Shown here piece after piece: positions 6,628-25,999 of a stretch of DNA of 37,990 nt (position 1 is its first letter; the number at the start of each line of letters is the position of its first letter). The position numbers and the translations under genes are program-made. A model generated the notes under the pieces. It was not told the origin of the DNA. It saw only the letters and a list, made by a program, of their open reading frames with translations, and did no database searches. Location: positions 1 through 37,990 of IMG/VR virus record IMGVR_UViG_3300037099_000441. The stretch is one strand, 5' to 3'. The stretch is from a virus.

Positions 6628-6662
6628 AACGAGTCTTTACGCCTTGACAGCCCCCGCGTCAA
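6628..6662 (-). promoter_or_regulatory. Leaderless promoter for the nuclease gene
   Basis: Minus strand: TTGACG (6662-6657), 17 nt, TAAAGA (6639-6634), 6 nt, ATG at 6627. The spacer holds a plus-strand TTGACA (6644-6649), so an inverted TTGAC pair sits between the divergent genes. A convincing plus-strand -10 was not found. Confidence 0.7.
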
Positions 6663-6679
6663 GGACCAAGGTGTGTGCA

Positions 6680-8773
6680 ATGGCTGAATCGTTCGCGTGG
6701 ATCCCTTGCTCGACTCGAGGAATACCCCTAATCAAATGGCGAGATCCCGCTACGTGGCGCCGCGACGCCCCACCGGAGAACGAGATTTTCGCGCTGCCTA
6801 CGGGGCTAGGGGGAAACAGGTTCTGGGTGCTCGACCTAGACCGGAAGAACGGCAAAGACGGCCTCGAAGCGCTCGCGGCGTACGCCCGGGAGCATGGCCA
6901 GGATCTCCCGGAGTCGTTGGTCGCCACGACACCCTCGGGGGGTTGGCATATTTATTGGGATTGCGCGGGCCGCACGATACCTCGCAAGATCGGCCTTCTC
7001 CCCGGGGTAGACGTGTTAGGCGAGCGGTCTATTGTGAAGTCCGGCCTAGGGTACGACGAGCATCCGGCCTTCGCGGGCCTGCCCCTTGTTCCCGCGCCGG
7101 ATTGGCTCGTCGCGCTGGTAACGTCAGCGGCGACCGCATCGACCGAAGAACCCGCGGCGTTGACAGCAATCCCCCTAGGAGAGAACGACCCGCGTCTGCC
7201 CGCGCACGTCGAAATGGGCAGGCGTCACCTCGAGGCCGAGCCCCCGTGCGTGTCTGGCGACGGTGGCCACGCTCACTTGTGGAACGTGGCAAGACGGCTC
7301 GTCCGGACGTACCAATTACCCGAGGAAACCGCGCTAGGCTTGCTCCAAGAGAGTTACAACGCGACGTGCGAACCCCCTTGGTCGGAGACAGAGTTGCGGC
7401 ACAAGCTCCATGAAGCGGCCACGAAAGCACAAGACTTGCCGGGTCTCGCCATTTTGCCCTTTGCGGCTTCGACGGACGCGGACGCGGACGCGGACGCGGG
7501 CGCGGACGCGGACGCACCGAAGGAATGGCGCCAACGGCCGAACCCAGAGCATAAATACACGATATCCGTGCACAATCCAGTAACAGGGCCGCAAATAGCG
7601 GCGAAGGCAACGGACCTTATCGGCACCTTCGCAGGCCCGCACGCTTCCGAAATTTGGCGCGGCGTCTGGCAATACGACGAACTCGATTGCGTGGTGCGCG
7701 CCGTCAATCCCCCGCTCCCGCTAGAAGCCGAAAAGAACGGCCTGCAACGTGTGGACTATGCGCGCGTTCAGTATTGGCTAGGAAGCGTCGGCTGGAAGAC
7801 ATCGATCGAAGCGATTGGCACCGCGATCGACGTTGCAGCCCACGAGTGCCGCGTGCACCCGATCCGAGATTATCTAGCGGGGTTGCCCGCGCCGACAACG
7901 AAGCACATCGAGCATCTAGCCTCGTCTCTAATGGGTGACGACAGTCCGTACGCCGATGATTTCGTTAGGAAATGGCTAATAGGCTGCGTCGCACGCATGA
8001 TGACGCCGGGCTGCCAGTTCGACACGGCCTTGACGCTAGTGGGCGAGATAGGAGGGGAGCGCAAATCGTCGTTCCTCTACGTGCTCGCGGGGCCGGGAAG
8101 ATCAAGATCGAGCGTTCCAGATATCTCAAACGGGCAAGCAATCGGGATGGCTATGCGGCGCCAGTGGATCGTAGAGCTGGGCGAACTGTCCGAAATGAAC
8201 ACTGCGGCCCGGTCCATATTCAAAGAGTTCATAACGCGCCGCGTCGAGCAATTCAACGCGAAGTACGCAATAACCGAGGCGGTAGAGCCTCGCCAGTGCG
8301 GAATCGCAGCGACGACAAATCGAATCGATTTCCTAGACGCATACGACTCAGCAACCCGGCGTAGGTTCTGGCCTGTACTCGTACAGAAACGAATAGCCGT
8401 CGAATGGGTTGAGGAGCACCGAGACGAGATCTGGGCGGAAGCGTACGCCGCGTATATGGCAGGCGAACAATGGTGGTATGCAGACGAGGCGGCAATTGAC
8501 GGCGCGTATCCGCGATTTATCACGGTTTCGCCGCTCGCCGAACAGGTAGCCGCGTATCTTGACCAACCCTCGCAACGGGCCTCCTTGAACGGGCTATCCG
8601 CTACTTCGGTAGCGCAAAGAGTCCTAGGCATAACGCACGTGGACGCGAAGACTCGGACGGAACTCGGAATGCTGCTATCTAAGACGCCGGGCGTAGAGAA
8701 GAAGCGTACGTCTAAGGGCGTTGTCTACTCCTTCGGCGAGGCCCCGGTGGCCAAGCTAAAGGTCGTGAAATAG
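6680..8773 (+). CDS. Primase-polymerase fused to VirE-type helicase
   Basis: 697 residues from ATG 6680 (MAESFAWIPC), preceded by AAGG 8 nt upstream; a longer frame would overlap the divergent nuclease gene and its promoter. Residues 1-150 form an archaeo-eukaryotic-type primase-polymerase: DLD at 52-54, SGGWHIYW around H90, and GVDVLGE around D111. A PriCT-like helical part follows (about 180-250), then an Asp/Ala repeat linker (about 266-280). The C-terminal VirE-like ATPase has a P-loop at about 454-463 (GEIGGERKSS), an acidic Walker-B-like strand WIVELGEL and sensor ATTN. It would prime and unwind at the fork. The P-loop is unusual: R precedes the lysine, with one extra residue. Confidence 0.92.
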   Translation: MAESFAWIPCSTRGIPLIKWRDPATWRRDAPPENEIFALPTGLGGNRFWVLDLDRKNGKDGLEALAAYAREHGQDLPESLVATTPSGGWHIYWDCAGRTIPRKIGLLPGVDVLGERSIVKSGLGYDEHPAFAGLPLVPAPDWLVALVTSAATASTEEPAALTAIPLGENDPRLPAHVEMGRRHLEAEPPCVSGDGGHAHLWNVARRLVRTYQLPEETALGLLQESYNATCEPPWSETELRHKLHEAATKAQDLPGLAILPFAASTDADADADAGADADAPKEWRQRPNPEHKYTISVHNPVTGPQIAAKATDLIGTFAGPHASEIWRGVWQYDELDCVVRAVNPPLPLEAEKNGLQRVDYARVQYWLGSVGWKTSIEAIGTAIDVAAHECRVHPIRDYLAGLPAPTTKHIEHLASSLMGDDSPYADDFVRKWLIGCVARMMTPGCQFDTALTLVGEIGGERKSSFLYVLAGPGRSRSSVPDISNGQAIGMAMRRQWIVELGELSEMNTAARSIFKEFITRRVEQFNAKYAITEAVEPRQCGIAATTNRIDFLDAYDSATRRRFWPVLVQKRIAVEWVEEHRDEIWAEAYAAYMAGEQWWYADEAAIDGAYPRFITVSPLAEQVAAYLDQPSQRASLNGLSATSVAQRVLGITHVDAKTRTELGMLLSKTPGVEKKRTSKGVVYSFGEAPVAKLKVVK

Positions 8774-8776
8774 CGA

Positions 8777-8803
8777 AAGCCCGCGACTCGAGGGCGCGGG
8801 CTT
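8777..8803 (+). terminator. Hairpin after the primase-helicase gene
   Basis: AAGCCCGCG (8777-8785) pairs perfectly with CGCGGGCTT (8795-8803), 3 nt after the TAG stop. The U-tract is poor, so it may be a weak terminator or an RNA-stabilising hairpin. Confidence 0.6.
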
Positions 8804-8820
8804 GAAGGGACGAGCGGGTA

Positions 8821-8844
8821 GGCGCGGGCCTTCAAACCCGCGCC
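8821..8844 (-). terminator. Hairpin closing the minus-strand small-gene operon
   Basis: GGCGCGGG (8821-8828) pairs with CCCGCGCC (8837-8844), 16 nt beyond the stop of the 59-aa gene on the minus strand. With the hairpin at 8777 it separates the convergent transcripts. No U-tract follows. Confidence 0.55.
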
Positions 8845-8860
8845 AAACCCGCGCCTTTAC

Positions 8861-9040
8861 TCATAAAACAATGATCTCTATTGCTTCGCAGCCCGTTTCT
8901 TTCGTCTGCATAGCGCAAGCGTCCTCGAAACCTCGGAGGACAGCGTACTCTTCTACGGCGTCTTCGGGGGAGTACGCTTGGATTAGAGCTAGCACCGTGT
9001 GCGTGGCCTGCGACTCTAGCCGATATGTATGCTTGCTCAT
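8861..9040 (-). CDS. Small unknown protein (59 aa)
   Basis: MSKHTYRLES followed by a helical alanine/acidic stretch and a terminal EIIVL strand. The composition is that of a folded small protein with normal codon use. ATG 9040 overlaps the stop of the upstream 33-aa gene (ATGA) and follows GGGAGC. Last gene of the operon begun at 9397. Not recognised. Confidence 0.75.
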   Translation of the reverse strand: MSKHTYRLESQATHTVLALIQAYSPEDAVEEYAVLRGFEDACAMQTKETGCEAIEIIVL

Positions 9041-9138
9041 ATTCCAAAGCTCCCGCGGTCCATCGTCGAAGCGCAGTGACGGCCTAGCCAGATCAGTGAC
9101 AGGATTGCAAGGACGGCGACTACGATTGCGGCGGTCAT
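9037..9138 (-). CDS. 33-aa single-pass membrane peptide
   Basis: Starts MTAAIVVAVLAILSLIWLG, one predicted membrane helix, then a short basic/polar tail. A strong GGAAGGAG Shine-Dalgarno lies 8-9 nt before ATG 9138, and the stop overlaps the next ATG. No function known; it may be a small host-envelope effector or a coupling peptide. Confidence 0.7.
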   Translation of the reverse strand: MTAAIVVAVLAILSLIWLGRHCASTMDRGSFGI

Positions 9139-9139
9139 G

Positions 9140-9397
9140 CTATACTCCTTCCCGGGAAGTTCGGGCTTTCTGATCGGCACGTTCCAATAGAGCCGCTAGA
9201 GCGTCAATCTGCGCCGAGCGCATCAAGGCTACTGCCGCGGCTAGCGCCATGTGGCCCCGCGCCACCGCAATTCGGTGCGAGCGGTCTAGAGAGTCGATGC
9301 GATCGGCTAGGTCGTCCATCAGGACGCGGTCGTCGTTCGTGTTCGTGTCGTTCGTGGTGTTCGGCTTGGTGTCGTTCGTGGTGTCCATGTTGTTCAT
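9140..9397 (-). CDS. Small accessory protein with Asn/Thr-rich N-terminus
   Basis: 85 residues. The first 24 are almost only N, T and D; the rest is a helical, amphipathic segment (MDDLADRIDSLDRSHRIAVA and onward). The early promoter ends 6 nt before ATG 9397. A second ATG three codons on (9388) is the one kept in the related cassette at 11305. Its stop codon region carries the ribosome site of the next gene. Function unknown. Confidence 0.75.
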   Translation of the reverse strand: MNNMDTTNDTKPNTTNDTNTNDDRVLMDDLADRIDSLDRSHRIAVARGHMALAAAVALMRSAQIDALAALLERADQKARTSREGV

Positions 9398-9449
9398 GAT
9401 CTTAGGATACGGCCGATCGCGGCCGCGGTCAAGGGTTTTCGTTATTTAG
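9398..9449 (-). promoter_or_regulatory. Conserved early promoter, cassette copy 1
   Basis: Minus strand: upstream CACCTAAATAACGAAAA, TTGACC (9432-9427), 17 nt GC-rich spacer with NotI and PvuI sites, TATCCT (9409-9404), 6 nt, ATG 9397. The spacer is identical in copies at 10913, 11306 and 11809. Confidence 0.9.
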
Positions 9450-9459
9450 GTGGGATATG

Positions 9460-9534
9460 TAGGGCTGCGCGGGGCTGCGCGGGTGACCTTAGGAGTCGTC
9501 AGCGTATATCCAGCCCCGTAGGAAGCCGTGGGCG
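9460..9534 (-). repeat. Repeated non-coding elements between cassettes
   Basis: Positions 9460-9500 match 11378-11418 with a single-base difference noted, and 9497-9534 match 11897-11934 nearly exactly. Together with the promoter copies they show that this region grew by duplication of gene-plus-promoter cassettes. On the minus strand the second element could encode AHGFLRGWIYADDS, possibly the remnant of a gene end. Confidence 0.8.
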
Positions 9535-9645
9535 TTACCGGCTCACGCAAAGGAGAAATACGACCGGAACGAGCATCGCGCCTAGCGCGACCGGACCGAG
9601 CCAGATTAGCGTGGCCAGCAAGAGGATGATTAGCATAGGTCGCAT
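9535..9645 (-). CDS. 36-aa hydrophobic membrane peptide
   Basis: MRPMLIILLLATLIWLGPVA and onward: nearly the whole chain is hydrophobic, enough for one long or two short membrane segments. It overlaps the 3' end of the 29-aa gene in another frame. The ribosome site is weak (GGGTGA), consistent with coupling. Unknown function; a holin-like role is possible but there is no lysis gene nearby. Confidence 0.55.
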   Translation of the reverse strand: MRPMLIILLLATLIWLGPVALGAMLVPVVFLLCVSR

Positions 9646-9719
9646 GGTGTCACCCAAGAGCAGAGGTAGAGTAGGGTCGAGGAAAGAAGAATCGGAACGA
9701 GTGGGAGTATGGTGTTCAT
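9630..9719 (-). CDS. 29-aa hydrophobic membrane peptide
   Basis: MNTILPLVPILLSSTLLYLC then a short Cys-containing tail. ATG 9719 overlaps the stop of the beta-helix gene (ATGA) and follows AGAAGGA. One predicted membrane helix. It overlaps the next small gene by 16 nt. Unknown function. Confidence 0.55.
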   Translation of the reverse strand: MNTILPLVPILLSSTLLYLCSWVTPCDLC

Positions 9720-10174
9720 GTACGTGTTCCTTCTGAGAGTATTTCGTCGTGTACCCGTGCCGAGCCGCAAACCGCCGCCGTTCCGCAAACCGTCGCCTCG
9801 CCGAAGACCGTCGCCTCGCCGAAGACCGTCGCCTCGCCGAAGACCGTCGCCTCGCCGAAGACCCAAGCCGTGTCGAAGACCCGCGCCGGTCCGTAGATGC
9901 GTGCCGAGCCGAAGACCGACGCCTTGCCGAAGACCCAAGCGTCTCCGAAGACCCGCGCCTTGCCGCAGACCCAAGCGTCTCCGAAGACCGTCGCCTTGCC
10001 GAAGACCGCAGCCGAGCCGAAGACACGCGCATTCGGACCGACGTAGGCCGTATCTGCCACCGTAGCAGTGTCGGCCACCCACCCGCCGCCGTTAGGGTGT
10101 CGGTGCGAGGGGACCAGACCGTACCCGAAATCGTGCGTCGTCGTTGTCGTCGTCGTTGTCGTCGTCGTGTTCAT
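9716..10174 (-). CDS. Hexapeptide-repeat left-handed beta-helix protein
   Basis: 152 residues from ATG 10174 after GAAGGAG. An 11-Thr tract near the N-terminus is followed by about 18 consecutive six-residue repeats of the type V-F-G-x-A-x (VFGKAT, VFGDAW, VFGEAT and similar). This is the left-handed beta-helix pattern of the bacterial-transferase hexapeptide family, like the YdcK-type proteins. No acyltransferase active-site insertion loop is visible, so a structural or binding role is more likely than catalysis. Four identical 18-bp units show recent expansion. It lies in the small-gene region after the 88-aa gene. Confidence 0.8.
   Translation of the reverse strand: MNTTTTTTTTTTTHDFGYGLVPSHRHPNGGGWVADTATVADTAYVGPNARVFGSAAVFGKATVFGDAWVCGKARVFGDAWVFGKASVFGSARIYGPARVFDTAWVFGEATVFGEATVFGEATVFGEATVCGTAAVCGSARVHDEILSEGTRT
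9789..9860 (-). repeat. Four identical 18-bp tandem repeats
   Basis: Units at 9789, 9807, 9825 and 9843 encode the VFGEAT steps of the beta-helix. One unit equals one hexapeptide rung, so copy-number change lengthens the helix without a frameshift. Confidence 0.95.
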
Positions 10175-10437
10175 GTTCGCGCTCCTTCGTCTAGGCCGGT
10201 CCAGTCGATCTCTTCGAGTGACGGCCCTCCGTAGCAATCCGAGTCGTCCCACGGGTCATCGTTTGGGGGAACGAGATAACAACCCGCTATGGCGCCCGTG
10301 CGGCGCCACTCGTCAAGGGCCCGCGCGTGTTCGTCGGAGCCGTGTTCGAGGCGCTTCGAGCCCCCAGACGGACAGCGGAAAACCCAGACGTCCACGGCCC
10401 CCCACGGAATAAGCGTCTTGTCTTTTGCGGTGCTCAT
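10171..10437 (-). CDS. Small acidic unknown protein (88 aa)
   Basis: MSTAKDKTLIPWGAVDVWVF, then a Trp- and Asp-rich C-terminus (PPNDDPWDDSD, EEIDWTGLDEG). Not recognised. ATG 10437 lies just after the stop of the secreted 50-aa gene; the stop overlaps the ATG of the beta-helix gene at 10174. Both junctions mark it as a real operon member. Confidence 0.75.
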   Translation of the reverse strand: MSTAKDKTLIPWGAVDVWVFRCPSGGSKRLEHGSDEHARALDEWRRTGAIAGCYLVPPNDDPWDDSDCYGGPSLEEIDWTGLDEGART

Positions 10438-10443
10438 CGGGGG

Positions 10444-10596
10444 TTACCGACAGGTTGTAACAGTACCGCCCAAGACGTATACCGTGGTGCATGTGTAGGT
10501 ATGTGAGGGAGCCGCGTTAGCGACTGCGCACGAAAAAGCCGTCAAGGCACCGAATATCGCGAGAGCGGAGAGAATCGTTAGCGTTAGCGTTTTCAT
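10444..10596 (-). CDS. Small secreted protein with signal peptide
   Basis: 50 residues: MKTLTLTILSALAIFGALTA then SCAVANA before APSHTYTCTT. This is a clear export signal, with cleavage probably after ANA. The mature peptide is only about 22 residues with two cysteines, perhaps a disulphide pair. The -10 box TATTAT ends 7 nt before ATG 10596 and includes an upstream ATG, so the internal one is the better start. A periplasmic or cell-surface effector, such as superinfection exclusion, is conceivable but not shown. Confidence 0.75.
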   Translation of the reverse strand: MKTLTLTILSALAIFGALTAFSCAVANAAPSHTYTCTTVYVLGGTVTTCR

Positions 10597-10651
10597 GTTG
10601 TTCATAATACGTCCGAAGGGGCTGGGGGTCAAGTGTTTTTTGATAATTAGG
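10597..10651 (-). promoter_or_regulatory. Divergent copy of the conserved early promoter
   Basis: Minus strand: upstream CCACCTAATTATC with an A-run, TTGACC (10632-10627), 17 nt, TATTAT (10609-10604), 7 nt, ATG 10596. It keeps the -35 and the A-rich upstream box but has a different spacer from the other copies. Confidence 0.85.
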
Positions 10652-10666
10652 TGGTAGATGTCGGAG

Positions 10667-10912
10667 TTAGCGGGTAGGATCGGCGTGAAGGAGCGACGTG
10701 AAGCTGATAATGGGGCGCGCGGTGGGCCGTGCCGTGGGGCGCGCGGTGGGCCGCGCGGCTTCGGGGGGTATCGTAGAGGCCGTGGCCAGAGCCAGTGAGT
10801 GCATGGCCAACGTATCCGCGCGTTGCGCAGCCCATTCGCAGGCGTCGGCCAAGCGTCCGTATTCAAGGAGGGAGTAAAGCGCTTCGTTGTTCGCGTTGTT
10901 GTTCGTGTTCAT
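10667..10912 (-). CDS. Small accessory protein (81 aa), Asn-rich start, ARPT repeats
   Basis: MNTNNNANNEALYSLLEYGR followed by a helical segment and three ARPT repeats encoded by short GC-rich direct repeats. The promoter -10 ends 6 nt before ATG 10912. No recognisable family. The disordered C-terminus may be a linker or evolutionary slack. Confidence 0.7.
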   Translation of the reverse strand: MNTNNNANNEALYSLLEYGRLADACEWAAQRADTLAMHSLALATASTIPPEAARPTARPTARPTARPIISFTSLLHADPTR

Positions 10913-10971
10913 GCTCTTATCCTACGGCCGATCGCGGCCGCGGTCAAGGGTTTTCGTTATTTAGGTGAGAT
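10913..10971 (-). promoter_or_regulatory. Conserved early promoter, cassette copy 2
   Basis: Minus strand: CACCTAAATAACGAAAA, TTGACC (10947-10942), identical 17-nt spacer, TAGGAT (10924-10919), 6 nt, ATG 10912. The TAA inside the upstream box is also the stop codon of the 114-aa gene. Confidence 0.9.
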
Positions 10972-11305
10972 ACCAGGCGACGTACACTGTCCAGACGTCC
11001 TCCCCTAGGAGCCTCAGGAGACTTTCCTCGTCTGGGCGGACGTAGTGCCACATGCCCTCGGAGTAATAGGCCGGCACGGCCCCCGTAGGCTCGGCGTCTA
11101 GGCTCGCTTCGATTAGGCTCGGCGATGGCCTGCCAGCGAGCAATTTGTTGGTATGGCAATCTAGCACCTGCGCCGGCAGGGAGCTCAGCCCCGCTGGAAG
11201 TGGTGCCGTTCCGTACGGAGGATCGTCGTCGGGGGCGGGATCGCCGTCGGGGCCGTCCGTGTACCCGGTCATTTCGTTGTTCGTGTTGTCGTTCGTGGTG
11301 TCCAT
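10961..11305 (-). CDS. Accessory protein (114 aa) with Asp/Asn/Thr-rich start
   Basis: Starts MDTTNDNTNNEMTGYTDG; a low-complexity acidic N-third precedes a more ordered part (PAQVLDCHTNKLLAGRPSPS, then EESLLRLLGEDVWTVYVAWY). Not recognised. Here the first ATG of the related 9397 cassette has become AGG, so translation starts at the second ATG, 15 nt after the -10 box. Its stop is part of the next promoter. Confidence 0.7.
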   Translation of the reverse strand: MDTTNDNTNNEMTGYTDGPDGDPAPDDDPPYGTAPLPAGLSSLPAQVLDCHTNKLLAGRPSPSLIEASLDAEPTGAVPAYYSEGMWHYVRPDEESLLRLLGEDVWTVYVAWYLT

Positions 11306-11366
11306 GTTGTTCCTGATCTTATCCTACGGCCGATCGCGGCCGCGGTCAAGGGTTTTAGATATTTAG
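11306..11366 (-). promoter_or_regulatory. Conserved early promoter, cassette copy 3
   Basis: Minus strand: upstream ACCTAAATATCTAAAA, TTGACC (11349-11344), identical 17-nt spacer, TAGGAT (11326-11321), then 15 nt to ATG 11305. It has the longest gap to a start codon among these copies. Confidence 0.88.
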
Positions 11367-11377
11367 GTGGTATACTG

Positions 11378-11418
11378 TAGGGCTGCGCGGGGCTGCGCGG
11401 GTGACCTCAGGAGTCGTC
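11378..11418 (-). repeat. Copy of the 9460-9500 intergenic element
   Basis: Contains the doubled GGGCTGCGCG and GTGACCT-AGGAGTCGTC. Its left part is the untranslated tail of the 133-aa gene, whose last codons (DDS, stop) lie inside it. Confidence 0.85.
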
Positions 11419-11808
11419 GACGCAGCTTAGGAACTCGTCCAATTCGCTCTGGCTGCCCTTGTACGCCCGTTTCGCCGCGTCAATGGCCAAGGCGACCTGG
11501 GCCATCGCTTCGACCTTCGCTAGGTTTTTGCGGAGATTCGCAGGGGTGGAATCGACCGCGTCCGCGTAGAGGTCGTAGTCGCACCATTTACGACATAGGG
11601 CCTTCAGTGCGTCTAAGGCGTCTTGCGTCAGCGCGTATTTGGCACGGTCCTCGTAGTCGGAGATGGGGTCCAAAGCGTAAGACTCGCCCACACATGCCTC
11701 GAAAGCCTCAACCCAGTCCTTAGGGACGCTGGCGTATATCTCGCTGGCCGTCACGACGGCGCGGGCGTAGGCGACTTTCTCTTCGATTCGTTTGGTGACG
11801 TTGTTCAT
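11407..11808 (-). CDS. Unknown helical protein (133 aa)
   Basis: MNNVTKRIEEKVAYARAVVT and onward: mostly helical, acidic, with a repeated aromatic/alanine pattern; ends ELDEFLSCVDDS. No recognised family. The promoter -10 ends 6 nt before ATG 11808. Placed just downstream of the beta clamp in the early region. Confidence 0.75.
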   Translation of the reverse strand: MNNVTKRIEEKVAYARAVVTASEIYASVPKDWVEAFEACVGESYALDPISDYEDRAKYALTQDALDALKALCRKWCDYDLYADAVDSTPANLRKNLAKVEAMAQVALAIDAAKRAYKGSQSELDEFLSCVDDS

Positions 11809-11869
11809 GCTTATATGATACGGCCGATCGCGGCCGCGGTCAAGTCTTTTCGTTATTTAGGTGGGATAT
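11809..11869 (-). promoter_or_regulatory. Conserved early promoter, cassette copy 4
   Basis: Minus strand: CACCTAAATAACGAAAAGA, TTGACC (11843-11838), identical 17-nt spacer, TATCAT (11820-11815), 6 nt, ATG 11808. Confidence 0.92.
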
Positions 11870-11896
11870 GTAGGTATCAGGTAGTCCGAAAGGAGC

Positions 11897-11934
11897 CGTC
11901 AGCGTATATCCAGCCCCGTAGGAAGCCGTGGGCG
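11897..11934 (-). repeat. Copy of the 9497-9534 element after the clamp gene
   Basis: 38 bp, nearly identical to 9497-9534. On the minus strand it is in frame after the clamp stop codon and would read AHGFLRGWIYADGSFRTT to the next stop if the TAA were read through. Confidence 0.85.
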
Positions 11935-11954
11935 AGGGGTGGGGATAAGGGCGA

Positions 11955-13025
11955 TTATATCCTCACCGGCATCACCACGGCGGTATAGTTGCCCTCTCGG
12001 AGGGCCAAGGGGGCAAGCGCGTCGCCACTGAGTTCCAGGGTAACCGTATCGCCTACTAGGTCTTCGATCGCCTCGCGAAGATATCGGGGGTTGACGCCTA
12101 CCGCCTCGCCGGTCCAAGGGGCCACGACGCTACCGGTGACGCCTAATTCTTCGCACACTATGATTGTGTTACCGTCCCCCGAGGCTGAGAAGATTGCGCC
12201 CCGCTTAGCCTTAGACATGCTCTTGAGCACTGCTACTAGCGCCTTCCGGGGCAGTAGGATAGGTGCGCGGTCGTACGCCGCGGGCACGACCTTGCGCCAG
12301 GGCGGGAACTTCGCATCGGACAAGCGCGTGATTAGGTGATAGGTGGCCGTATGTAGGCTAAGGTATTCCTCATTCCAGCTTGCGTGCGCCTCGGTAGCAG
12401 GTGCGCTTAGCATCGCAAGGACGGCGTCGTAAGGGATGAGCAGATGGTACGGCGATGTCGGTGCGGTAGCACGGACGACCGCCATCCGGTGGCCATCGGT
12501 CGCCACCGTGTGGACGACGCCGTCCGCGTCGCACTCGACGCAAACGCCGTGCCGATCCTCGCGCACATAGTCCTGGGACATGGCGTGTGCGACGCGCCGG
12601 ATGGCCTCGAGATCGATGGTGGCGCTCCGAGCGCCCGCTTTCGGGGTCGCGGACGGAAATTCCGGCAAGTCGGCCAAGGGGTAGGTGGGTAGTTTGACGA
12701 CGAGCGCGCCCGATACGACCGTGCCGTCGCCCCTTATCGTTACAAGAGGATTCTCCGAGGCGCTTCGGGCGAACTTGAGCAGGTCCTTCACGTCAAGAAC
12801 GATGGGCGCGGCGGTTGCCGGTACCACCGCGTCCGTAGTCGGGACTGAGACGGTAAGCTCTTGGGCCCCGTTGTAGACGCGGAACGACGCTTCGTACTTC
12901 AGGAAGGCCGCGGACGCGTAAGCGGAGATCCTTACTTGTCGCAGCGGTTCGGGGGCGTCTTTCGTCAAGAGGGCAAGGGGGGCCAAGGCTCGTACTAGCT
13001 CTTTGCGGTTCAAGGTGATTTGCAT
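11955..13025 (-). CDS. dnaN: DNA polymerase beta sliding clamp
   Basis: 356 residues in three repeats. VATDGHRMAV, FPPWRKVVP, VNPRYLREAIEDL and the C-terminal TAVVMPVRI are hallmarks of bacterial DnaN clamps, and the length is close to the usual 366. It should tether a polymerase, and other clamp-binding proteins, to DNA. A phage family A polymerase together with a phage clamp is uncommon. ATG 13025 is chosen over GTG 13031 because the promoter -10 ends 6 nt before it. Expressed from the first of the conserved early promoters. Confidence 0.95.
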   Translation of the reverse strand: MQITLNRKELVRALAPLALLTKDAPEPLRQVRISAYASAAFLKYEASFRVYNGAQELTVSVPTTDAVVPATAAPIVLDVKDLLKFARSASENPLVTIRGDGTVVSGALVVKLPTYPLADLPEFPSATPKAGARSATIDLEAIRRVAHAMSQDYVREDRHGVCVECDADGVVHTVATDGHRMAVVRATAPTSPYHLLIPYDAVLAMLSAPATEAHASWNEEYLSLHTATYHLITRLSDAKFPPWRKVVPAAYDRAPILLPRKALVAVLKSMSKAKRGAIFSASGDGNTIIVCEELGVTGSVVAPWTGEAVGVNPRYLREAIEDLVGDTVTLELSGDALAPLALREGNYTAVVMPVRI

Positions 13026-13079
13026 GATCACAGGATACGGCCGATCGGCGCCACGGTCAAGTCTTTTCGTTATTTAGGT
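13026..13079 (-). promoter_or_regulatory. Conserved early promoter of the clamp gene
   Basis: Minus strand: CACCTAAATAACGAAAAGA, TTGACC (13060-13055), 17-nt spacer that differs from the cassette copies in its first half, TATCCT (13037-13032), 6 nt, ATG 13025. Confidence 0.9.
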
Positions 13080-13188
13080 GGGATACGGTAGGGTGTGCGG
13101 GCCGGCGGGCCGGCGGGCCAGTGTACTCGCTCTCTCGAGAAACACCGAGAAAAGCCGCGTTTCGGGTGGCCAGTGTAGGGGGCGTGTA

Positions 13189-13246
13189 GAGGGCGTGTAC
13201 ACTCGAAAACACTCGAAAACCCCGTGAAAACACGCCCTCTTCTTCT
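13189..13246 (+). terminator. Long-range inverted repeat followed by a T-rich tail
   Basis: GAGGGCGTGT (13189-13198) pairs with ACACGCCCTC (13230-13239), followed by TTCTTCT. The 31-nt loop contains two ACACTCGAAA copies. It could stop plus-strand transcripts, but no gene ends here, so the role is uncertain. Confidence 0.35.
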
Positions 13247-13307
13247 ATAGTGTATAGATGTATACGGGGGGTAGAGGAAGGGGCGTATAACGGGGGGGCA
13301 ATATCCG

Positions 13308-13930
13308 TTATAGCGGATATTGCAGCGGGAATATCCCGCGGGAATATCCGCGTGAGTGACGCCCTGGCCCCCGGACAAGTGTTAGAACTAGCCAGCAGGG
13401 GTACATGGTGTACACTGGCCATCAAAAGAGTAACGATTACGAGCACTTAGACCCGTGCATACCGGCGTGTATACCCCCGGACGTATACACTACGGTGCGG
13501 CGCGGGGCGGGACGGCCTTCTACGGTGCGGCGCGGGGCGGTTCGGTGCGACGCGGCGCGGAATACAGGCAAATTCTCGATGGGAACGCTATTCCCTGCCC
13601 GACTTGGCCACCCGCCGCATTGCGTAAGATTCTACGCACTGCCTTGAAGCACCCTACACAACTCGTCGGATATTACCGGATATTACCCGGATATTGCCCG
13701 AATATCCGTCGTAATATCCGCCTCCGAGACCGAATATCCGCCTCCGAGACCGAATATCCGACGTAATATCCGCCTCCGAGACCGAATATCCTGCCCGTAA
13801 CGGGGAGGATATTGCCCGTAATGGGCCGGATATTACGTGCGCGGGCGTTCGGAATATCCGTTATAGTAGACAGCGGTCCCTTAGAGCGACGATAATATCC
13901 GCTATAGTGGATATTACCCGGATATTGGGC
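13308..13930. repeat. Iteron-like array of GGATATT/AATATCC
   Basis: By eye, 19 heptamers in both orientations: four at 13308-13355 and fifteen at 13667-13927. Some form palindromes, such as GCAATATCCG with CGGATATTGC around TTATAG at 13308-13333. A 20-bp unit CCTCCGAGACCGAATATCCG recurs at 13721 and 13741, and again, less its last base, at 13773. The mixed orientations and near-regular spacing suggest binding sites for a dedicated protein. Confidence 0.85.
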
Positions 13931-14235
13931 GTCGGTGTGCACACGCGGGGTAAGGTCGTATTGCGTCGGTGTGCGCACGCGGGTTATGGTGGGGTAAGGT
14001 CGTACGCATCATGCGCACGCGGGCGATGGGGTGTGTAAGGACGTACGCATCATGCCTAAGTAGCGGGCGATGGGGGGTGTGTAAGGACGTACGCGCAGTA
14101 CGCACGCAGGCGCCCGGTACGCACGCACATGCGGTTCGGTGCGGCGCGGGGCGATGGGCGTAGGGGGTAGGCCCGAGCGCGAAGTAGGGTCCCATAATCG
14201 GCCGCCCGCACGCATGGGGAGTAACCCGGAGATCC

Positions 14236-14445
14236 AAAATTTTTTTATATATTACCGACGGCCCCCCGCCGCCGCCGCCGCACGCATGGGAAGATAGGAA
14301 AAATATTATATTGCCGACGGCCCCCGCCGCCGCCGCACGCATGGGAAGATAGGAAAAATACTATATTGCCGACGGCCCCAAAGGATATCCCGACAGATAT
14401 TCGGTCGCCGCGCCCGCCGACGGCCCCAAAGGATATCCCGCATGT
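14236..14445. repeat. AT-rich tract and about 60-bp direct repeats
   Basis: An AT-only run of 19 nt (14236-14254) is followed by repeats built of GCCGACGGCCCC, (CCG)n, CACGCATGGGAAGATAGGAA and a TAT-rich end, with two full copies and partial copies carrying AAAGGATATCCCG. The alternation of very GC-rich and AT-rich blocks looks like a melting element beside protein sites. Confidence 0.75.
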
Positions 14446-14462
14446 TCGGGCCGCAAATACGC

Positions 14463-14498
14463 AAACCCCCGACACCTAACGAAAGGTGTCGGGGGTTT
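14463..14498 (-). terminator. Strong bidirectional terminator after the endolysin
   Basis: A perfect 15-bp stem, AAACCCCCGACACCT with AGGTGTCGGGGGTTT, around a 6-nt loop. It lies 29 nt beyond the endolysin stop, so it ends the minus-strand lysis/head transcript; the symmetry would also stop plus-strand transcription. Confidence 0.92.
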
Positions 14499-14527
14499 AG
14501 GATGTTCAGTGAGGGTATCGTGAAACA

Positions 14528-15142
14528 CTACATAAGCAAAGACAAGAACGTTTCGGGGTCACCCCCGCATTCGACAGAACGAGCGGCTAAAAAGAAAGCT
14601 TTGGCCGTAGTCACATTCCTTTCATTGGAGCAACCGTTCATGCGGCATTGCTTCCCGGCCTCCAGCCAGTCTTTAGCCTCCACAGCAGCAGAAAAGTGCG
14701 GATATCCGCCGTGGAAATTGTTCGGCCCTCGCGCCCACGCCATCGACATCAGACCCCATTGGGCATCGGCCGGATAGCTTGGCCAATCGGGGAACTGCGC
14801 CTTGACTAAGGACTCGTTGGCAGCCAATCGAACGGTGCAAAGTTCGTCGATGGCTTTCTCCGGGAGGGTGATGGTAGTGATCAGACGAAAAGCCTGGCCA
14901 CCGCGCGCGCAAAGGTCTTTGCGGCTCTTCACAAGAGCCCACTGCGCTTTGATGGTCTTGACGGTGGCTGCGGTTCCGTCTGCGTTGTTCACGAAGCCCA
15001 GGCAAACGGCCGAGGCGACGGGATCGATGAGGTTACCGCGACCGATTGTGACCAGACCTTCCGTGTCCAAGTACATGTAGGGCAGATGGCCCTCAAGCTT
15101 GTCGGTGAGCGAATTGAAGTTGTCAAACAGTTGCTGACGCAT
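14528..15142 (-). CDS. Endolysin, T4-type lysozyme (GH24-like)
   Basis: 204 residues. E17 (in LEGH), D26 (in YLDTEG) and T32 (in VTIGRGN) reproduce the T4 lysozyme triad E11-D20-T26 with exactly the same spacing of 9 and 6. It hydrolyses peptidoglycan for lysis. No signal peptide or membrane anchor, so it needs a holin. It overlaps the 3' end of the papain-like gene by 20 nt and is the last gene before the terminator. Confidence 0.93.
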   Translation of the reverse strand: MRQQLFDNFNSLTDKLEGHLPYMYLDTEGLVTIGRGNLIDPVASAVCLGFVNNADGTAATVKTIKAQWALVKSRKDLCARGGQAFRLITTITLPEKAIDELCTVRLAANESLVKAQFPDWPSYPADAQWGLMSMAWARGPNNFHGGYPHFSAAVEAKDWLEAGKQCRMNGCSNERNVTTAKAFFLAARSVECGGDPETFLSLLM

Positions 15143-15632
15143 GGGGTGCCTCGTATGCCTTCAGCATTCTCGCGAGCATACCGGGATCGATGCTCCGAAT
15201 ATCGGCTGCTGGAACGTCAGCGAACAGAGGGTGACCGATGCTCTTCAGGATAAGCGCCGCGGCTTCCGAACAGAACATGTGATGAGGGTTCGCGAAGGCG
15301 TTTGGCCAACGCTTTCCGAAGAGCATCCCGATGCGAACTACGAGCTCGCCGAGAATGCCCGAGTAGTCGTAAGGCGTGTCCCACCAAGCCGTGCAAAGGT
15401 CAAACGCGGCTTGCGCCGGCTTGCCGCCCGTTATGCAGTACTCTTCCACGACTTCGCCTTGATGCCCGAGGCGACAACGGAAACCGTCCCAAGCGGCCTC
15501 GAAGAAGACATCGCGATCGGCTAGAGCAAGCTCGAACCGTAGATACGCGTGGGACTCCGGGGCGAGGGTAATCCAACGGATGGCCCTCGACACGAAGTCA
15601 TTGGCCGTAGAGAAGCCCACGTAGAGTTTCAT
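15123..15632 (-). CDS. Permuted papain-like (NlpC/P60 superfamily) enzyme
   Basis: 169 residues. H28 in ESHAYLRF precedes C121 in MFCSEAAALIL. This His-before-Cys order is that of circularly permuted NlpC/P60 enzymes (YiiX/LRAT type). Likely an amidase or hydrolase acting on cell-wall peptides or lipids; its position among lysis genes favours the wall. ATG 15632 overlaps the previous stop (ATGA). Confidence 0.8.
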   Translation of the reverse strand: MKLYVGFSTANDFVSRAIRWITLAPESHAYLRFELALADRDVFFEAAWDGFRCRLGHQGEVVEEYCITGGKPAQAAFDLCTAWWDTPYDYSGILGELVVRIGMLFGKRWPNAFANPHHMFCSEAAALILKSIGHPLFADVPAADIRSIDPGMLARMLKAYEAPHASATV

Positions 15633-15838
15633 TTGCCCTCAAGGGTTCGCAGATTCGCGGCGGTCTCCGACACGACGGACGGAGCGATGGGCGCGATGGG
15701 CGCGATGGGCGCGGTGGACGCGGTGGGCGCGGTGGACGAGGCCTTGATACTCGCGACGAGATTCTCGACGTCTTGCACAATCTCCGGCGCGAAGGTGAAG
15801 ATTTCCTGTAGCAGAGCGATGACAACAGCGGGGTTCAT
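15629..15838 (-). CDS. Small protein with Ala/Pro/Ile repeat (69 aa)
   Basis: MNPAVVIALLQEIFTFAPEI and onward: an N-terminal amphipathic helix, then a TAP/IAP repeat encoded by a short tandem repeat. Linked by ATGA overlaps on both sides. It might be a tail- or lysis-associated small protein; not recognised. Confidence 0.65.
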   Translation of the reverse strand: MNPAVVIALLQEIFTFAPEIVQDVENLVASIKASSTAPTASTAPIAPIAPIAPSVVSETAANLRTLEGK

Positions 15839-16398
15839 ATGCTGAGGGCTTTCAGGTTGGGTGTGGTGAGAACGAACGCGGCGTCCGAAGCGGCGTCCGA
15901 AGCGGCGTCCGTAACCGAGGCGTCCAGAGCGGGCGGCGGAGCGGGCGGCGGAGCGGGGGGCGTGACGGTCGTTCCGGCGTCCGCGGCGACGCAAGTGGGG
16001 TCCGTAAAGCGGTCGGCCAGGGTCATAGCGTCTTCGATAACGGCCAAGGTCGCTTCAGAAACATCCAGGTCTTGGCCAACAGATTCGACAAGGGCTACGG
16101 CCTGAAGCATGGCGCATCCGGCCTTGGGGTTGAAGCCCGTATCGACGGCTTGAGCGGCCGTCTGTAGAAGATTCTGCGCTACGATAAGCGTCTTCGCACA
16201 AGCGGTCTGGCTGGTAGCCACGCCGCTAGCCTTGGCGTGCGCAACGCAAGCGTCGGACGCCACATTCCAAACCGTCGTCGCCAAGACGATGGCGGCCACT
16301 TGATCCGCGTGCGACGGGGTCGACGACGCGGGTAGAGTCGAACAGCCGAGCACACCGCCGAGGATACATCCAAGGCCGAGGACAAACACATTTTTCAT
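15835..16398 (-). CDS. Phage lipoprotein, lysis cassette
   Basis: 187 residues with a lipoprotein signal: MKNVFVLGLGCILGG then VLGC with the lipobox Cys at 19. The mature part is helical with several cysteines and ends in a PPAPPPAPPPAL linker and DAAS repeats. Outer-membrane anchoring in a diderm host is expected. An o-spanin-like or exclusion role is possible but it is longer than usual spanins. Overlaps both neighbours by ATGA. Confidence 0.8.
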   Translation of the reverse strand: MKNVFVLGLGCILGGVLGCSTLPASSTPSHADQVAAIVLATTVWNVASDACVAHAKASGVATSQTACAKTLIVAQNLLQTAAQAVDTGFNPKAGCAMLQAVALVESVGQDLDVSEATLAVIEDAMTLADRFTDPTCVAADAGTTVTPPAPPPAPPPALDASVTDAASDAASDAAFVLTTPNLKALSI

Positions 16399-16640
16399 GG
16401 AGACACCGGGGGGTTATCCGCGACGATCGCGGGGGTTACGGGGGCGGGCGCGACGGGGGCGGGCGCGACGGGCGCGGCTGGGATGGCGGAAGGCGAAATG
16501 TGCGCCAAAACGCCGAGAAGGGCCGTAGCTACGGACGCCGTGATCTGAGCTGCTTGGCCAACATGCGGGTCACCCGCCAATTGCGTGGCCACGCCAGCGG
16601 CGCACATGAGGAACAACATGAAGTAGTGGATAGCTTTCAT
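16395..16640 (-). CDS. Small membrane protein, holin candidate
   Basis: 81 residues. MKAIHYFMLFLMCAAGVATQ and ITASVATALLGVLAHI make two predicted membrane helices, followed by an APVAPAPV repeat tail. AAGGAGT lies upstream of ATG 16640. Size, topology and position beside endolysin genes suit a class II holin, but no family signature proves it. Confidence 0.6.
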   Translation of the reverse strand: MKAIHYFMLFLMCAAGVATQLAGDPHVGQAAQITASVATALLGVLAHISPSAIPAAPVAPAPVAPAPVTPAIVADNPPVSP

Positions 16641-16686
16641 CGGACTCCTTACCCTGAAGCTAGCACCGCTCCCGCACGTGTCAAGG

Positions 16687-16986
16687 TCAGCGGCGCACTA
16701 TTCCTGAAACGGACGTGCTTTTGATCAAGATGAAGAGACCTGTCACGATTTGGCCCGCTGTAACAGGGTAGGTCCTAGTCGTGGTGTCGCCGGCCAATTG
16801 CGCGACCAAGTTGCCCGTCGCGCCGCAATAGAAGTCGGTAGCGCAAGGATGCAGGCCGTTGGTCGGGTCGGTCAAGTCGAGATCGGCAACGCCCCCGGTG
16901 AAAGCCACGCTGACCGCAGGCTTCTCTACGTGGGAGTATTCCACTATTTGCGCGATGGTCGGGAATCCGCCTACGGGGAACGTCAT
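16687..16986 (-). CDS. Small virion protein resembling spike base proteins
   Basis: 99 residues. The C-terminal half (CATDFYCGATGNLVAQLAGD, then YPVTAGQIVTGLF and SVSGIV) matches the beta-rich pattern of short spike base proteins known from gene transfer agents (Rcc01079 type). ATG 16986 overlaps the stop of the 52-aa gene. Likely sits with the fibres on the virion; likeness by pattern only. Confidence 0.55.
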   Translation of the reverse strand: MTFPVGGFPTIAQIVEYSHVEKPAVSVAFTGGVADLDLTDPTNGLHPCATDFYCGATGNLVAQLAGDTTTRTYPVTAGQIVTGLFILIKSTSVSGIVRR

Positions 16987-17141
16987 GGCTTTTTAGTCCA
17001 AAAATTGTTGATGTAGTGGGACACAATCGCGCCACAAGCCGCGGTAATCATCGCGAAAACGAATCGCCCGATCCACTCCGCAGCCCCCGGCAAAGACATC
17101 GCAGCGGCGGAGGAGAGTAGGCCGATGATACTATGGCGCAT
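16983..17141 (-). CDS. 52-aa membrane protein, holin candidate
   Basis: MRHSIIGLLSSAAAMSLPGA then a segment with FVFAMITAACGAIV, ending FWTKKP: one or two membrane spans and a basic C-terminus. The late box CTAAAAT ends 5 nt before ATG 17141, so it heads the lysis transcript. A holin is the natural guess; not provable here. Confidence 0.6.
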   Translation of the reverse strand: MRHSIIGLLSSAAAMSLPGAAEWIGRFVFAMITAACGAIVSHYINNFWTKKP

Positions 17142-17153
17142 GGTGGATTTTAG
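17142..17153 (-). promoter_or_regulatory. Late-type box before the lysis genes
   Basis: CTAAAAT (minus, 17153-17147), 5 nt, ATG 17141. No -35 match visible. Confidence 0.7.
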
Positions 17154-17162
17154 CACGGCTGG

Positions 17163-18698
17163 TTACCTTGTGCTGCAAGTGACTGTACCGCCACTCGTAT
17201 ACGCCCCGGGAGCGCCCACGTTCACATAGAAGGAATTGGCATCGGCCACAACTACGCGCAATTGCTGGCCATTCACACCGGTAGCACCGCCGACACCGTT
17301 GATATTCACGAGATCCCCCGTCCAAAGGCCGTGATTTGCGGACGTGACCAGAGGGTTGGTGGTATTGGTCACGCCCGTTATGACCGTCTGGGGCACATTC
17401 AACGCACTTGTGCGGCTCCGTAACACATAGGATGCCAAGTCGCGAGCACCCAGGGAGTACGGCGAACCGACGTAGAAGCCGAAGTTCGTAAAGGCCGCGG
17501 AAGCCATTGACGCAATTTGAGCCCAGTGCCGCCCGTCCAAGGAGAATTGCGCGTTGATATGGGTCCCGTCGTTCAGGAACCGCAGGCGAGCTAGGTTGTA
17601 GCCGCACACCAATTGGGAAGAGTCAATACCCGACGAGGAGCTTCTACCGCTAGCGCCTATGACGAAAGAGTCCATGGCGTAGCCGTTGCTATTGAAGTAC
17701 AGGTAGTTCACATACACCGTGGACGTACCCGATACGGTGCCATTCGAGATGGCTACGCCTATCCCGGGGTAGCCGCCTGGAAGCGCTTGGGGGCTGATAG
17801 TACCGGCAAACTCCACTAGCCAAGGGGTGCTTGCAGGCAGCGACGCAGCCTTCAGCAGCACGGACTCTTGATTCGTCGTGAAAGCCGTGTCGCTAGGGGA
17901 CGAGGTAAGAAATATGACATCCCCATCGGACCGGGTCGCTATGCCGGTACCGCATACAGTGTAGTCAGACAGAACGGGTGGTACGCCTATGAGCTCACCC
18001 TGGAACACTACTTGCCAAGCCGTACCGTTGTCCAAGTATACGAAGGGGAGATCAGTGCAGTAGTAGAGGGCGCCGGCTTGGCCGGGGGGTGGTCGGCTGC
18101 CGAAGGGTCCGGTACCGGTAGGGATAGAGCCCGGGAACACGATGGCCACGGATTCGACCGCAGCGATGTTCCCCCCGGAGACCGTCACTTGCGCTACGTG
18201 CGCGCTATCTCCGTAGGTACCATCCGGGAGACCGGAACTACCCGCGGGTCCCGTCGGACCCGTCGGACCCGGAGGCCCTGCCGGTCCCGTCGCGCCCGTC
18301 GCACCCGTCGCGCCCGGAGTACCCGAGCTGGAGAGACCGCTGAAGCCGGACGGAGACACGGTAGATTCGGCCGTTATTACCGCTCCCGGCAGAGCGTTCT
18401 CCGACTCCCCGAGGTTGGTCAGAATCATGTGAGAGGAGTTTGGCACCGATGAGACGGAGTAATTGCCCCCGGTAGCCACGAAAACAGCTTGGCCAACCGA
18501 CACCCACATGGCATCGATCACGGGCACGCTCACGGTGCCCCCAACAGCGGGCTGAACGAATGACGCCGTTGTCGCCGTGAAAGCGTTGCTACCCGAGGGT
18601 CCTGGCGACCCAGTGGGGCCGGCCAGCCCTAGAACGGACGAGTACGAAGTCGCTGTAACCGGGGCAGGGGAGCTGACGTTGCTGGTTAGAGTGGTCAT
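17163..18698 (-). CDS. Collagen-like tail fibre protein, second copy
   Basis: 511 residues. A G-x-x collagen-like block (GATGATGPAGPPGPTGPTG) separates an N-terminal attachment part from a beta-rich body with LARLRFLNDGT and DGRHWAQ. The C-terminal module HGLWTGDLVNINGV and NGQQLRVVVADANSFYVNV resembles an FCCH-like domain common at phage fibre ends. It is a tandem duplicate of the next gene (18711-20258), with nearly identical last 40 codons. Probably host receptor binding. The late box lies 5 nt before ATG 18698. Confidence 0.85.
   Translation of the reverse strand: MTTLTSNVSSPAPVTATSYSSVLGLAGPTGSPGPSGSNAFTATTASFVQPAVGGTVSVPVIDAMWVSVGQAVFVATGGNYSVSSVPNSSHMILTNLGESENALPGAVITAESTVSPSGFSGLSSSGTPGATGATGATGPAGPPGPTGPTGPAGSSGLPDGTYGDSAHVAQVTVSGGNIAAVESVAIVFPGSIPTGTGPFGSRPPPGQAGALYYCTDLPFVYLDNGTAWQVVFQGELIGVPPVLSDYTVCGTGIATRSDGDVIFLTSSPSDTAFTTNQESVLLKAASLPASTPWLVEFAGTISPQALPGGYPGIGVAISNGTVSGTSTVYVNYLYFNSNGYAMDSFVIGASGRSSSSGIDSSQLVCGYNLARLRFLNDGTHINAQFSLDGRHWAQIASMASAAFTNFGFYVGSPYSLGARDLASYVLRSRTSALNVPQTVITGVTNTTNPLVTSANHGLWTGDLVNINGVGGATGVNGQQLRVVVADANSFYVNVGAPGAYTSGGTVTCSTR
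17166..17290 (-). repeat. 3' duplication shared by the two fibre genes
   Basis: About 125 bp are almost identical to 18714-18840, whereas the middle of the genes has diverged. This suggests gene conversion or selection on the C-terminal module. Confidence 0.85.
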
Positions 18699-18710
18699 GT
18701 TCTATTTTAG
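18699..18710 (-). promoter_or_regulatory. Late-type box before the second fibre gene
   Basis: CTAAAAT (18710-18704), 5 nt, ATG 18698; directly after the stop of the first fibre gene. Confidence 0.7.
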
Positions 18711-20258
18711 TCATCGCGAGGTGCAAGTGACCGTACCGCCACTCGTATACGCCCCGGGAGCGCCCACGTTCACGTAGAAGGAATTGGCATCGGCCACAAC
18801 TACGCGCAATTGCTGGCCATTCACTCCGGTAGCTCCCGTGACACCGTGAATGTTCACGAGATCGCCCGTGCGAAGGCCGTGACTTGCGGACGCGACAAGC
18901 GGGTTAGCGGACGATCCTACGGCCGTTATAGCCGTCTGGGGCACATTCAACGCACTTATGCGATTACGTAGCACGTAGGACGTCAAGTCGTGATAGTTGT
19001 TGCTTAGGGGATTGCCGACGAAAAAGCCAAAATAGGAGAAGGTCGCGGAGCCTACTATGGTTGCTCCCGTGTTCATCTGAGCCCAGTGCCGCCCGTCCAA
19101 AGAGAATTGACCATTTAGATAGGTCCCGTCGTTCAGTATACGCAAGCGAGCTAGGTTGTAGCCGCACTGCATTTGCAAGGGAGTAGTGCCGTAATTAGCA
19201 CCTACTGCCCCGTTCAGTGTGAACGTACTGAAACCGAAGCTGCTACTTGTCCCATCCAAGAAATAGTGTGCGGCGTAGCATAAGGACGAACCGAGGGTGT
19301 TCCCGTTGCTGACGACCATACCGGCACCCACATTGTTGGTAAGCCCGGGCACTTGAGGGCTTACAGTACCCGCAAACTCCACTATCCAGGGGGTACTCGC
19401 CGGCAGGGACGCAGGTTGTAGGAACGCCGCGATGTTCGTAGCCGTGAAAGCGGCGTCGTTAGGGGAGATATCGGCTAAGATCACGTCTCCTTCGGTTCTC
19501 GCGCAAGCGTTCGTTCCGTAAGTCGTATAGCCGGATAGCGCCGGGGGTACGCCTATGTTCTCGTTGTGGAACAGCACTTGCCACGCGGAACCGCTATCTA
19601 CGTATACGAAGGGCAGGTCGGTGCAATAGTACAAGGCCCCGGAGTTGCCCGGAGCCGGTCGACTGGCGAAAGGCCCGCTCGCTCTCGAGGTCACCGAAGG
19701 GGTGGATATGACGGCCGATGATACCGAGACCGGGTGCGTGCCCGCCACTACTATCACGTCCGAGTGTGTGCTATTTCCGAAGGTGCCGTTAGACAGCGTT
19801 CCCAGACCCGCAGGCCCCGCAGCGCCCGGGGGTCCTGTGGGTCCCGTGGGTCCCGTGGGTCCCGTGGGTCCCGTCGCACCCGTCGGCCCCGGTGCCGAAG
19901 ATCCGGTACCCTCGCCCGTGGGAGACACGAAAACGCCTGCGCCTGTTAGGGTCCCCGGAAGCGTGCTTCGCACGCCCCCCAGATTCGTCAGTGTCACCGA
20001 TGACCCGGACTTGGCTGCTACCAGGTAGGTGCCCACATTCATGAGCCAGAGAGTTTGGCCAACCGACACCCATGCGGCGTCGCTTAGACTCACGGTCACG
20101 TTACTGCCGACTGCCGGTTGCATGAGCGTGGCAGTAGTTCGGGAGAAGCCGGACGACCCCGTAGGCCCGGGCGCTCCCGGCAGTCCCTGCGTGACCATAG
20201 TTTTGGCCAACGCGATGCCGGAAGGCGTCAGATTCCCGGGGACCACACCGTATTTCAT
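18711..20258 (-). CDS. Collagen-like tail fibre protein, first copy
   Basis: 515 residues, the paralogue of the gene at 17163. Collagen-like blocks GLPGAPGPTGSSG near the N-terminus and GPTGATGPTGPTGPTG at about 125-150; then PASLPASTPWIVEFAGTVSP and DGRHWAQ as in the partner, and the same FCCH-like end. The first residues MKYGVVPGNLTPSGIALAKT may attach to the virion. ATG 20258 overlaps the stop of the terminator-like gene (ATGA). The two fibres may give different or mixed receptor specificity. Confidence 0.85.
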   Translation of the reverse strand: MKYGVVPGNLTPSGIALAKTMVTQGLPGAPGPTGSSGFSRTTATLMQPAVGSNVTVSLSDAAWVSVGQTLWLMNVGTYLVAAKSGSSVTLTNLGGVRSTLPGTLTGAGVFVSPTGEGTGSSAPGPTGATGPTGPTGPTGPTGPPGAAGPAGLGTLSNGTFGNSTHSDVIVVAGTHPVSVSSAVISTPSVTSRASGPFASRPAPGNSGALYYCTDLPFVYVDSGSAWQVLFHNENIGVPPALSGYTTYGTNACARTEGDVILADISPNDAAFTATNIAAFLQPASLPASTPWIVEFAGTVSPQVPGLTNNVGAGMVVSNGNTLGSSLCYAAHYFLDGTSSSFGFSTFTLNGAVGANYGTTPLQMQCGYNLARLRILNDGTYLNGQFSLDGRHWAQMNTGATIVGSATFSYFGFFVGNPLSNNYHDLTSYVLRNRISALNVPQTAITAVGSSANPLVASASHGLRTGDLVNIHGVTGATGVNGQQLRVVVADANSFYVNVGAPGAYTSGGTVTCTSR

Positions 20259-21592: not shown

Positions 21593-21593
21593 C

Positions 21594-21911: not shown

Positions 21912-21915
21912 GTCG

Positions 21916-22104: not shown

Positions 22105-22134
22105 AGGGTACCTCTAACACACGGTCCGTACAAG

Positions 22135-22515: not shown

Positions 22516-22519
22516 GATG

Positions 22520-22771: not shown

Positions 22772-22780
22772 AGGTGCTCC

Positions 22781-23212: not shown

Positions 23213-23214
23213 GG

Positions 23215-25987: not shown

Positions 25988-25999
25988 GAACAATTTTAG
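25988..25999 (-). promoter_or_regulatory. Late-type box for the head operon
   Basis: CTAAAAT (25999-25993), 5 nt, GTG 25987. It is divergent from the tail box at 26006. Confidence 0.75.

Follow-up and report, generated by a model that had tools for sequence, protein, structure and literature searches.

A two-cluster, mixed-orientation heptamer array as the probable replication origin of a phage encoding a PrimPol-VapE helicase

The Rep protein of SaPIs has been reported to bind, through its C-terminal domain, iterons located just 3′ of rep (PMC7581432). PICI origins consist of two iteron sets placed around an AT-rich region (PMC6092414), an organisation which, according to the ISME J 2018 paper on these elements, is not shared by any other known bacterial replicon (PMC6092414). 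ORF904 of the archaeal plasmid pRN1 is a PrimPol-helicase with a C-terminal winged helix, and the essential origin region of this plasmid lies near the gene (PMC4234260). That origin is a 100-nt stem-loop without iterons. In P4, ori and crr carry octamers of the GGTGAACA type in both orientations, forming two clusters about 4.7 kb apart, and ori stands away from the gene for the initiator, alpha. The alpha protein combines primase and helicase in one chain and binds DNA through a domain at its C-terminus. Its primase domain is of the bacterial (Toprim) kind (PMC4234260).

The locus compared here with these systems lies in a linear virus record of 37,990 bases, analysed over its full length and referred to below as the window. 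Since the right end falls inside a gene read by eye as portal, the record is a fragment. An initial annotation had placed a heptamer array between the early and late halves of this phage, and the gene content fits: to its left are replication genes for a family A DNA polymerase (64-1935, minus strand; part of the phage's own replication set), an SNF2-like helicase, a PD-(D/E)XK nuclease, a PrimPol-VapE helicase and a sliding clamp, and to its right are lysis genes and contractile-tail virion genes. The array occupies a 1.5-kb interval (13032-14527) between the clamp gene dnaN (11955-13031, minus strand; phrog_947, E 1.1e-39; PF02767), which probably starts at the ATG at 13025, and an ORF, also on the minus strand, read as lysozyme. 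The ORFs overlapping the array are all of the chance type, and its description as free of genes is thus plausible. At the right of the interval, a hairpin read directly from the sequence, CCCCCGACACC-N8-GGTGTCGGGGG (14466-14495), probably terminates the leftward late operon before the putative origin region; it was not flagged by a terminator scan. Among the leftward early genes there are duplicated segments with 98% identity (9458-9534 versus 11376-11418 and 11891-11934), and the gene at 9716-10252 (minus strand) contains 18-bp repeats encoding a YdcK-like beta-solenoid (PF18836).

Exactly 19 copies of the heptamer GGATATT/AATATCC lie within 13300-13926, as 4 + 15 copies and all where the annotation had located them, versus two in the rest of the 38-kb window. 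The total of 21 compares with a mean of 2.84 and a maximum of 8 in dinucleotide shuffles (n = 100). Cluster 1 (13300-13349) has heptamers at 13300 (-), 13315 (+), 13330 (-) and 13343 (-). Cluster 2 (13668-13926) also holds both orientations, at 13668 (+), 13678 (+), 13689 (+), 13701 (-), 13713 (-), 13733 (-), 13753 (-), 13765 (-), 13785 (-), 13807 (+), 13828 (+), 13853 (-), 13894 (-), 13909 (+) and 13920 (+). Neighbouring copies in cluster 2 are spaced by 10, 11, 12, 12, 20, 20, 12, 20, 22, 21, 25, 41, 15 and 11 bp, that is, mostly by 10-12 or 20-22 bp, with modest phasing to a turn of 10.2-11.0 bp (p = 0.02). Since the heptamer is preceded by C in 15 of the 19 copies, the extended unit can be written as CGGATATT. 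Both kinds of higher-order repeat that had been claimed for the array are real: a 20-bp unit, AATATCCGCCTCCGAGACCG, is repeated 2.4 times in tandem at 13713-13760 within cluster 2, and palindromes are present in cluster 1 (AATATCCGTTATAGCGGATATT, 13300-13321) and cluster 2 (AATATCCGCTATAGTGGATATT, 13894-13915). The two palindromes are near-identical and constitute a 26-nt inverted repeat that brackets the array. When all heptamers of the record were scored for clustering, this was the only significant mixed-orientation array (score 27.7); the next-best arrays had their copies in a single orientation, and one of these was part of an 18-bp repeat inside an ORF. To the right of the array, palindromic GGATATCC words occur at 14383-14390, 14431-14438 and 14700-14707, two of them in a 25-bp repeat, and are possibly related to the iteron.

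The clusters are separated by 318 bp of DNA that is partly very GC-rich and not AT-rich. Of all 20-bp stretches in the 38-kb window, the four with the lowest stability, starting at 14235, 14292, 14346 and 13244, lie within the same 1.5-kb interval, and AT-rich elements flank the array on both sides. The first three form AT-rich boxes in 55-bp repeats (14233-14379) and the fourth lies in a stretch to the left of cluster 1 (13238-13263); each of these two regions is a candidate DNA unwinding element. Cumulative GC skew, which the annotation had proposed as a way of recognising an origin, tracked gene strand and had no turning point at 13.3-13.9 kb, and was uninformative.

A search for a phage-encoded protein that might bind the repeats, also proposed at the outset, led to the PrimPol-VapE/D5 helicase as the probable binder (6527-8773, plus strand, as the ORF from the first GTG; PF05272, E 3.7e-51). 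The true start probably lies further in than this GTG. The N-terminus contains the PrimPol motifs VLDLD, SGGWHIYW and GVDV, recognised by eye, and gave weak matches to primase/polymerase profiles. By sequence the protein matched PDB entry 7PDS, described as PriRep1 with dsDNA (phmmer E 2.4e-21), and its AlphaFold model (mean pLDDT 76.8) matched the same entry by Foldseek (E 3.5e-21) and by VIA (Z 28.2 over 379 residues, covering helicase residues 352-742); the NrS-1 helicase region (Z 14.0) and the SaPI5 primase-helicase (Z 12.3) were lower-ranking VIA matches. In two predictions the last 100 residues were modelled as helices plus a two-strand wing typical of a winged helix, and this predicted C-terminal domain (aa 669-736, encoded at 8531-8734, plus strand) is the proposed reader of the iterons. 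A fold search with the C-terminus alone returned mostly generic winged-helix PDB matches, none with E ≤ 0.001.

The association between such helicases and short repeats was surveyed by applying a simple clustered-heptamer score to 16 named-phage regions and 80 viral contigs with related helicases. For the 79 contigs with at least 600 nt of 3′ flank, a threshold of 3 was used (the best of 80 shuffled sequences scored 2.7). Arrays at or above this threshold were present in 40 of the 79 contigs, 36 of them in mixed orientation, and 30 of these 36 started between 300 nt before and 600 nt after the helicase stop codon, compared with 3.0 expected under uniform placement. About half of the surveyed loci had no array above threshold, so an array is not obligatory for helicases of this family. 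The 30 arrays at helicase ends had 21 different top heptamers, several being variants of one lineage (GTCCCAC and relatives), leaving perhaps about 15 independent motifs. Among the named phages, 8 of 16 had a mixed array at the helicase 3′ end, with RcPacific just below threshold; arrays were displaced in SFCi1 (upstream of the helicase gene) and BV57P3 (7 kb away), and in the others either no array exceeded the threshold or there was nothing but a same-orientation repeat at an end of the record. AmM-1, JY04, Haddon and the viral contig L123 share the association at the helicase 3′ end.

The iteron was also compared with the helicase domains. In pairs of helicases with a C-terminal identity of at least 0.6, the iterons matched in 99% of cases; in pairs with a core identity above 0.5 but a C-terminal identity below 0.4 they were mostly unmatched, the mean number of unmatched heptamer positions, out of 7, being 2.9 in such pairs versus 0.9. 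These sequence comparisons suggest that the iteron motif follows the C-terminal domain of the helicase, in part through shared ancestry, related phages having both in common. Many surveyed arrays consist of two sets 97-124 bp apart. Some are nearly mirror images, as 3′ of the VapE helicase genes of three contigs, L219 (2041-2372), L217 (9217-9478) and L222 (5264-5518, about 400 nt after the gene), and these three arrays are themselves candidate origins. ABAtENZ, IME1320_01, StAB, AmM-1 and the IMG/VR contig L219 resemble the window in having a mixed-orientation heptamer array tied to a related helicase; they differ from it in that their arrays are at the helicase 3′ end, many as two sets with this separation, and in their motifs. 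Surveyed arrays had 5-13 heptamers, versus 19 in the window.

Following the helicase gene of the window itself (stop at 8773), a scan of 8774-9180 revealed nothing comparable to the arrays of relatives. Since the GGATATT array is then the only candidate, it was taken as the probable origin, and this is the main step in the reasoning. We infer binding of these repeats by this helicase and initiation of replication at the array, and put at roughly 0.65 the probability that the array serves as origin for a replicon of the PriRep/P4-alpha type with a self-loading helicase. The first of the two functions initially offered for the array, a replication origin, is favoured by the comparative evidence from helicase-linked arrays. 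The neighbourhood of dnaN had been thought to mark the origin; the array does lie upstream of dnaN, but the link looks incidental, the array of related phages being 3′ of the helicase gene. In the proposed mechanism, the PrimPol-VapE helicase would bind the CGGATATT iterons through its C-terminal winged helix, assemble on them as hexamers and open the AT-rich DNA next to the array (at 14.23-14.37 kb or at 13.24 kb); its own PrimPol domain would then supply priming before hand-over to the family A polymerase and clamp of the phage.

PICI and SaPI origins with Rep or Pri-Rep initiators (PriRep1, 7PDS; SaPI5 Rep, 7OLA) share with the window a helicase of the same family, by sequence and by fold, together with multiple short iterons, AT-rich DNA nearby and, in the predicted fold, a C-terminal DNA-binding domain on the helicase. 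They differ in that their iterons are directly 3′ of rep, whereas those of the window are 4.5 kb from the helicase gene, in having AT-rich DNA between the two iteron sets rather than in boxes outside the array, and in belonging to satellite islands rather than to a phage with its own polymerase and clamp. The layout of P4 is close to that of the window, with short iterons in both orientations and in two clusters, spacings of about 10, 21 and 43 bp (annotated ori gaps of 10, 11, 22, 43 and 10), an ori that likewise stands away from the initiator gene, and a fused primase-helicase. However, the iteron sequence is unlike CGGATATT, the primase domain of alpha is Toprim whereas that of the window's helicase is PrimPol-type, and the distance between the P4 clusters far exceeds the 318 bp seen here. 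ORF904 of pRN1 has the domain arrangement of the window's helicase, a PrimPol-helicase with a C-terminal winged helix, but its origin has no counterpart of the iteron array of this phage.

Against the origin reading, the array is not 3′ of the helicase gene, and it does not have the two-set layout with a 97-124 bp centre of many surveyed origins. Another origin could lie in the missing part of the linear fragment. We infer that the array is a variant, one that would work like a PriRep or P4 origin but lacks the position and the layout that define the PICI type. A further suggestion, speculative and unlikely, is that the origin left the vicinity of its initiator gene for a place ahead of the clamp gene and was remodelled into 19 iterons flanked by unwinding boxes, where binding of the initiator could also influence expression of the clamp and tie the loading of polymerase to initiation.

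Relatives of the phage were distant. The closest in the replication module, IMGVR_UViG_3300010373_000940 (G004), has the same gene order (polymerase, SNF2, nuclease, helicase), with identities of 37% for polA, 42% for SNF2 and 34% for the helicase, and its own array of eight AGGGAC copies around the helicase 3′ end. Its head genes come after the helicase gene and share its strand; across 8774-25993 of the window the arrangement differs, the head genes being inverted and distant, as though through a large inversion. Viral contigs scanned with one protein at a time (clamp, helicase or polymerase) yielded no close relatives, and a capsid scan gave three fragments, all without the replication region. 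No relative carrying the same array was found in the collections searched, and no DNA similarity of the array interval to phages was detected. MW202816 (polymerase 28% and SNF2 27% identity) was considered as a relative and dropped, as no array was present there. A scan of viral contigs for GGATATT triplets returned mostly AT-rich or same-orientation arrays, and a scan of genome contigs with CGGATATT mostly chance matches of 3-5 sites. The one strong match in the CGGATATT scans was L123, a virus of 66% GC with seven GGATATT heptamers at 5576-5744, starting where an unrelated Prim-Pol helicase gene has its stop codon. The agreement may be accidental, because arbitrary heptamers could occur in any of thousands of phages and no clear resemblance is seen between the C-terminal domains.

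The array could instead be an origin at which another protein, such as the product of a small early ORF, acts as initiator and recruits the PrimPol-helicase. Displacement of the array from the helicase gene and its departure from the usual two-set layout would be in keeping with this, as would the presence of several early ORFs without a family match. Yet the ORFs scanned gave no recognisable second initiator, helicase loader or helix-turn-helix protein, and in relatives the arrays adjoin the helicase gene itself and the motif follows the helicase C-terminal domain; we consider a separate initiator unlikely.

The second function initially offered, the operator or enhancer of a master transcription regulator switching early (leftward) versus late genes, in the manner of dispersed phage stoperators, appears weaker and is in our view quite unlikely. 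The position of the array, upstream of dnaN with early modules on one side and late ones on the other, would suit it, TATAGT-like words lie between the heptamers of the two palindromes, and one promoter-like match (13867-13896) overlaps cluster 2, although such matches barely exceeded those in shuffles (3 versus 1.2). The recurring early promoters point elsewhere. Five near-identical minus-strand cassettes (9380-9470, 10895-10985, 11297-11387, 11791-11881 and 13008-13098), each just before a leftward gene, combine a conserved upstream TATCCCACCTAAATAACGAAAA, TTGACC, a 17-nt spacer that is palindromic in the copies and a TATCCT-type -10; GGATATT is absent from all five, including that of dnaN (TTGACC-N17-TATCCT, 13032-13060, minus strand). 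Nor are the heptamers spread to other promoters, 19 of the 21 being in one interval, and among the ORFs scanned in this incomplete genome none was recognised as coding for a regulator. In most cassette copies the start codon follows the -10 by about 6-7 nt, and the genes possibly give leaderless mRNAs under one regulator. If one regulator does control the five early genes, its site is more likely in the promoter cassette than in the heptamers.

Partition centromeres include short repeats in both orientations, and the array might be such a site, or another DNA-organising site, comparable to the arrays of heptads in plasmid partition systems. The loosely matching folds for the helicase C-terminus do include centromere binders of the winged-helix class, AspA for example, but the ORFs scanned yielded no ParA-like or centromere-binding gene and spacings of 10-12 and 20-22 bp are unlike contiguous heptads, making this very improbable. 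Equally hard to credit is a functionless repeat expansion: the interval holds several further repeat families, so duplication is tolerated there, but a heptamer invariant in 19 copies among variable spacers, in mixed orientation and at helical-turn spacings, is not expected from tandem duplication.

Taken together, these data point to a likely origin, and to its likely initiator, in a phage lineage whose relatives in the collections searched are all distant. A PICI-like origin organisation is seen here in many phages, and the survey suggests a rule by which many phages with VapE/PrimPol-helicases have a heptamer array of their own, in most cases located 3′ of the helicase gene, with a motif that goes together with the C-terminal domain of that helicase. 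Such a rule would allow origins to be predicted from sequence, and makes a protein-DNA code between winged helix and iteron testable.
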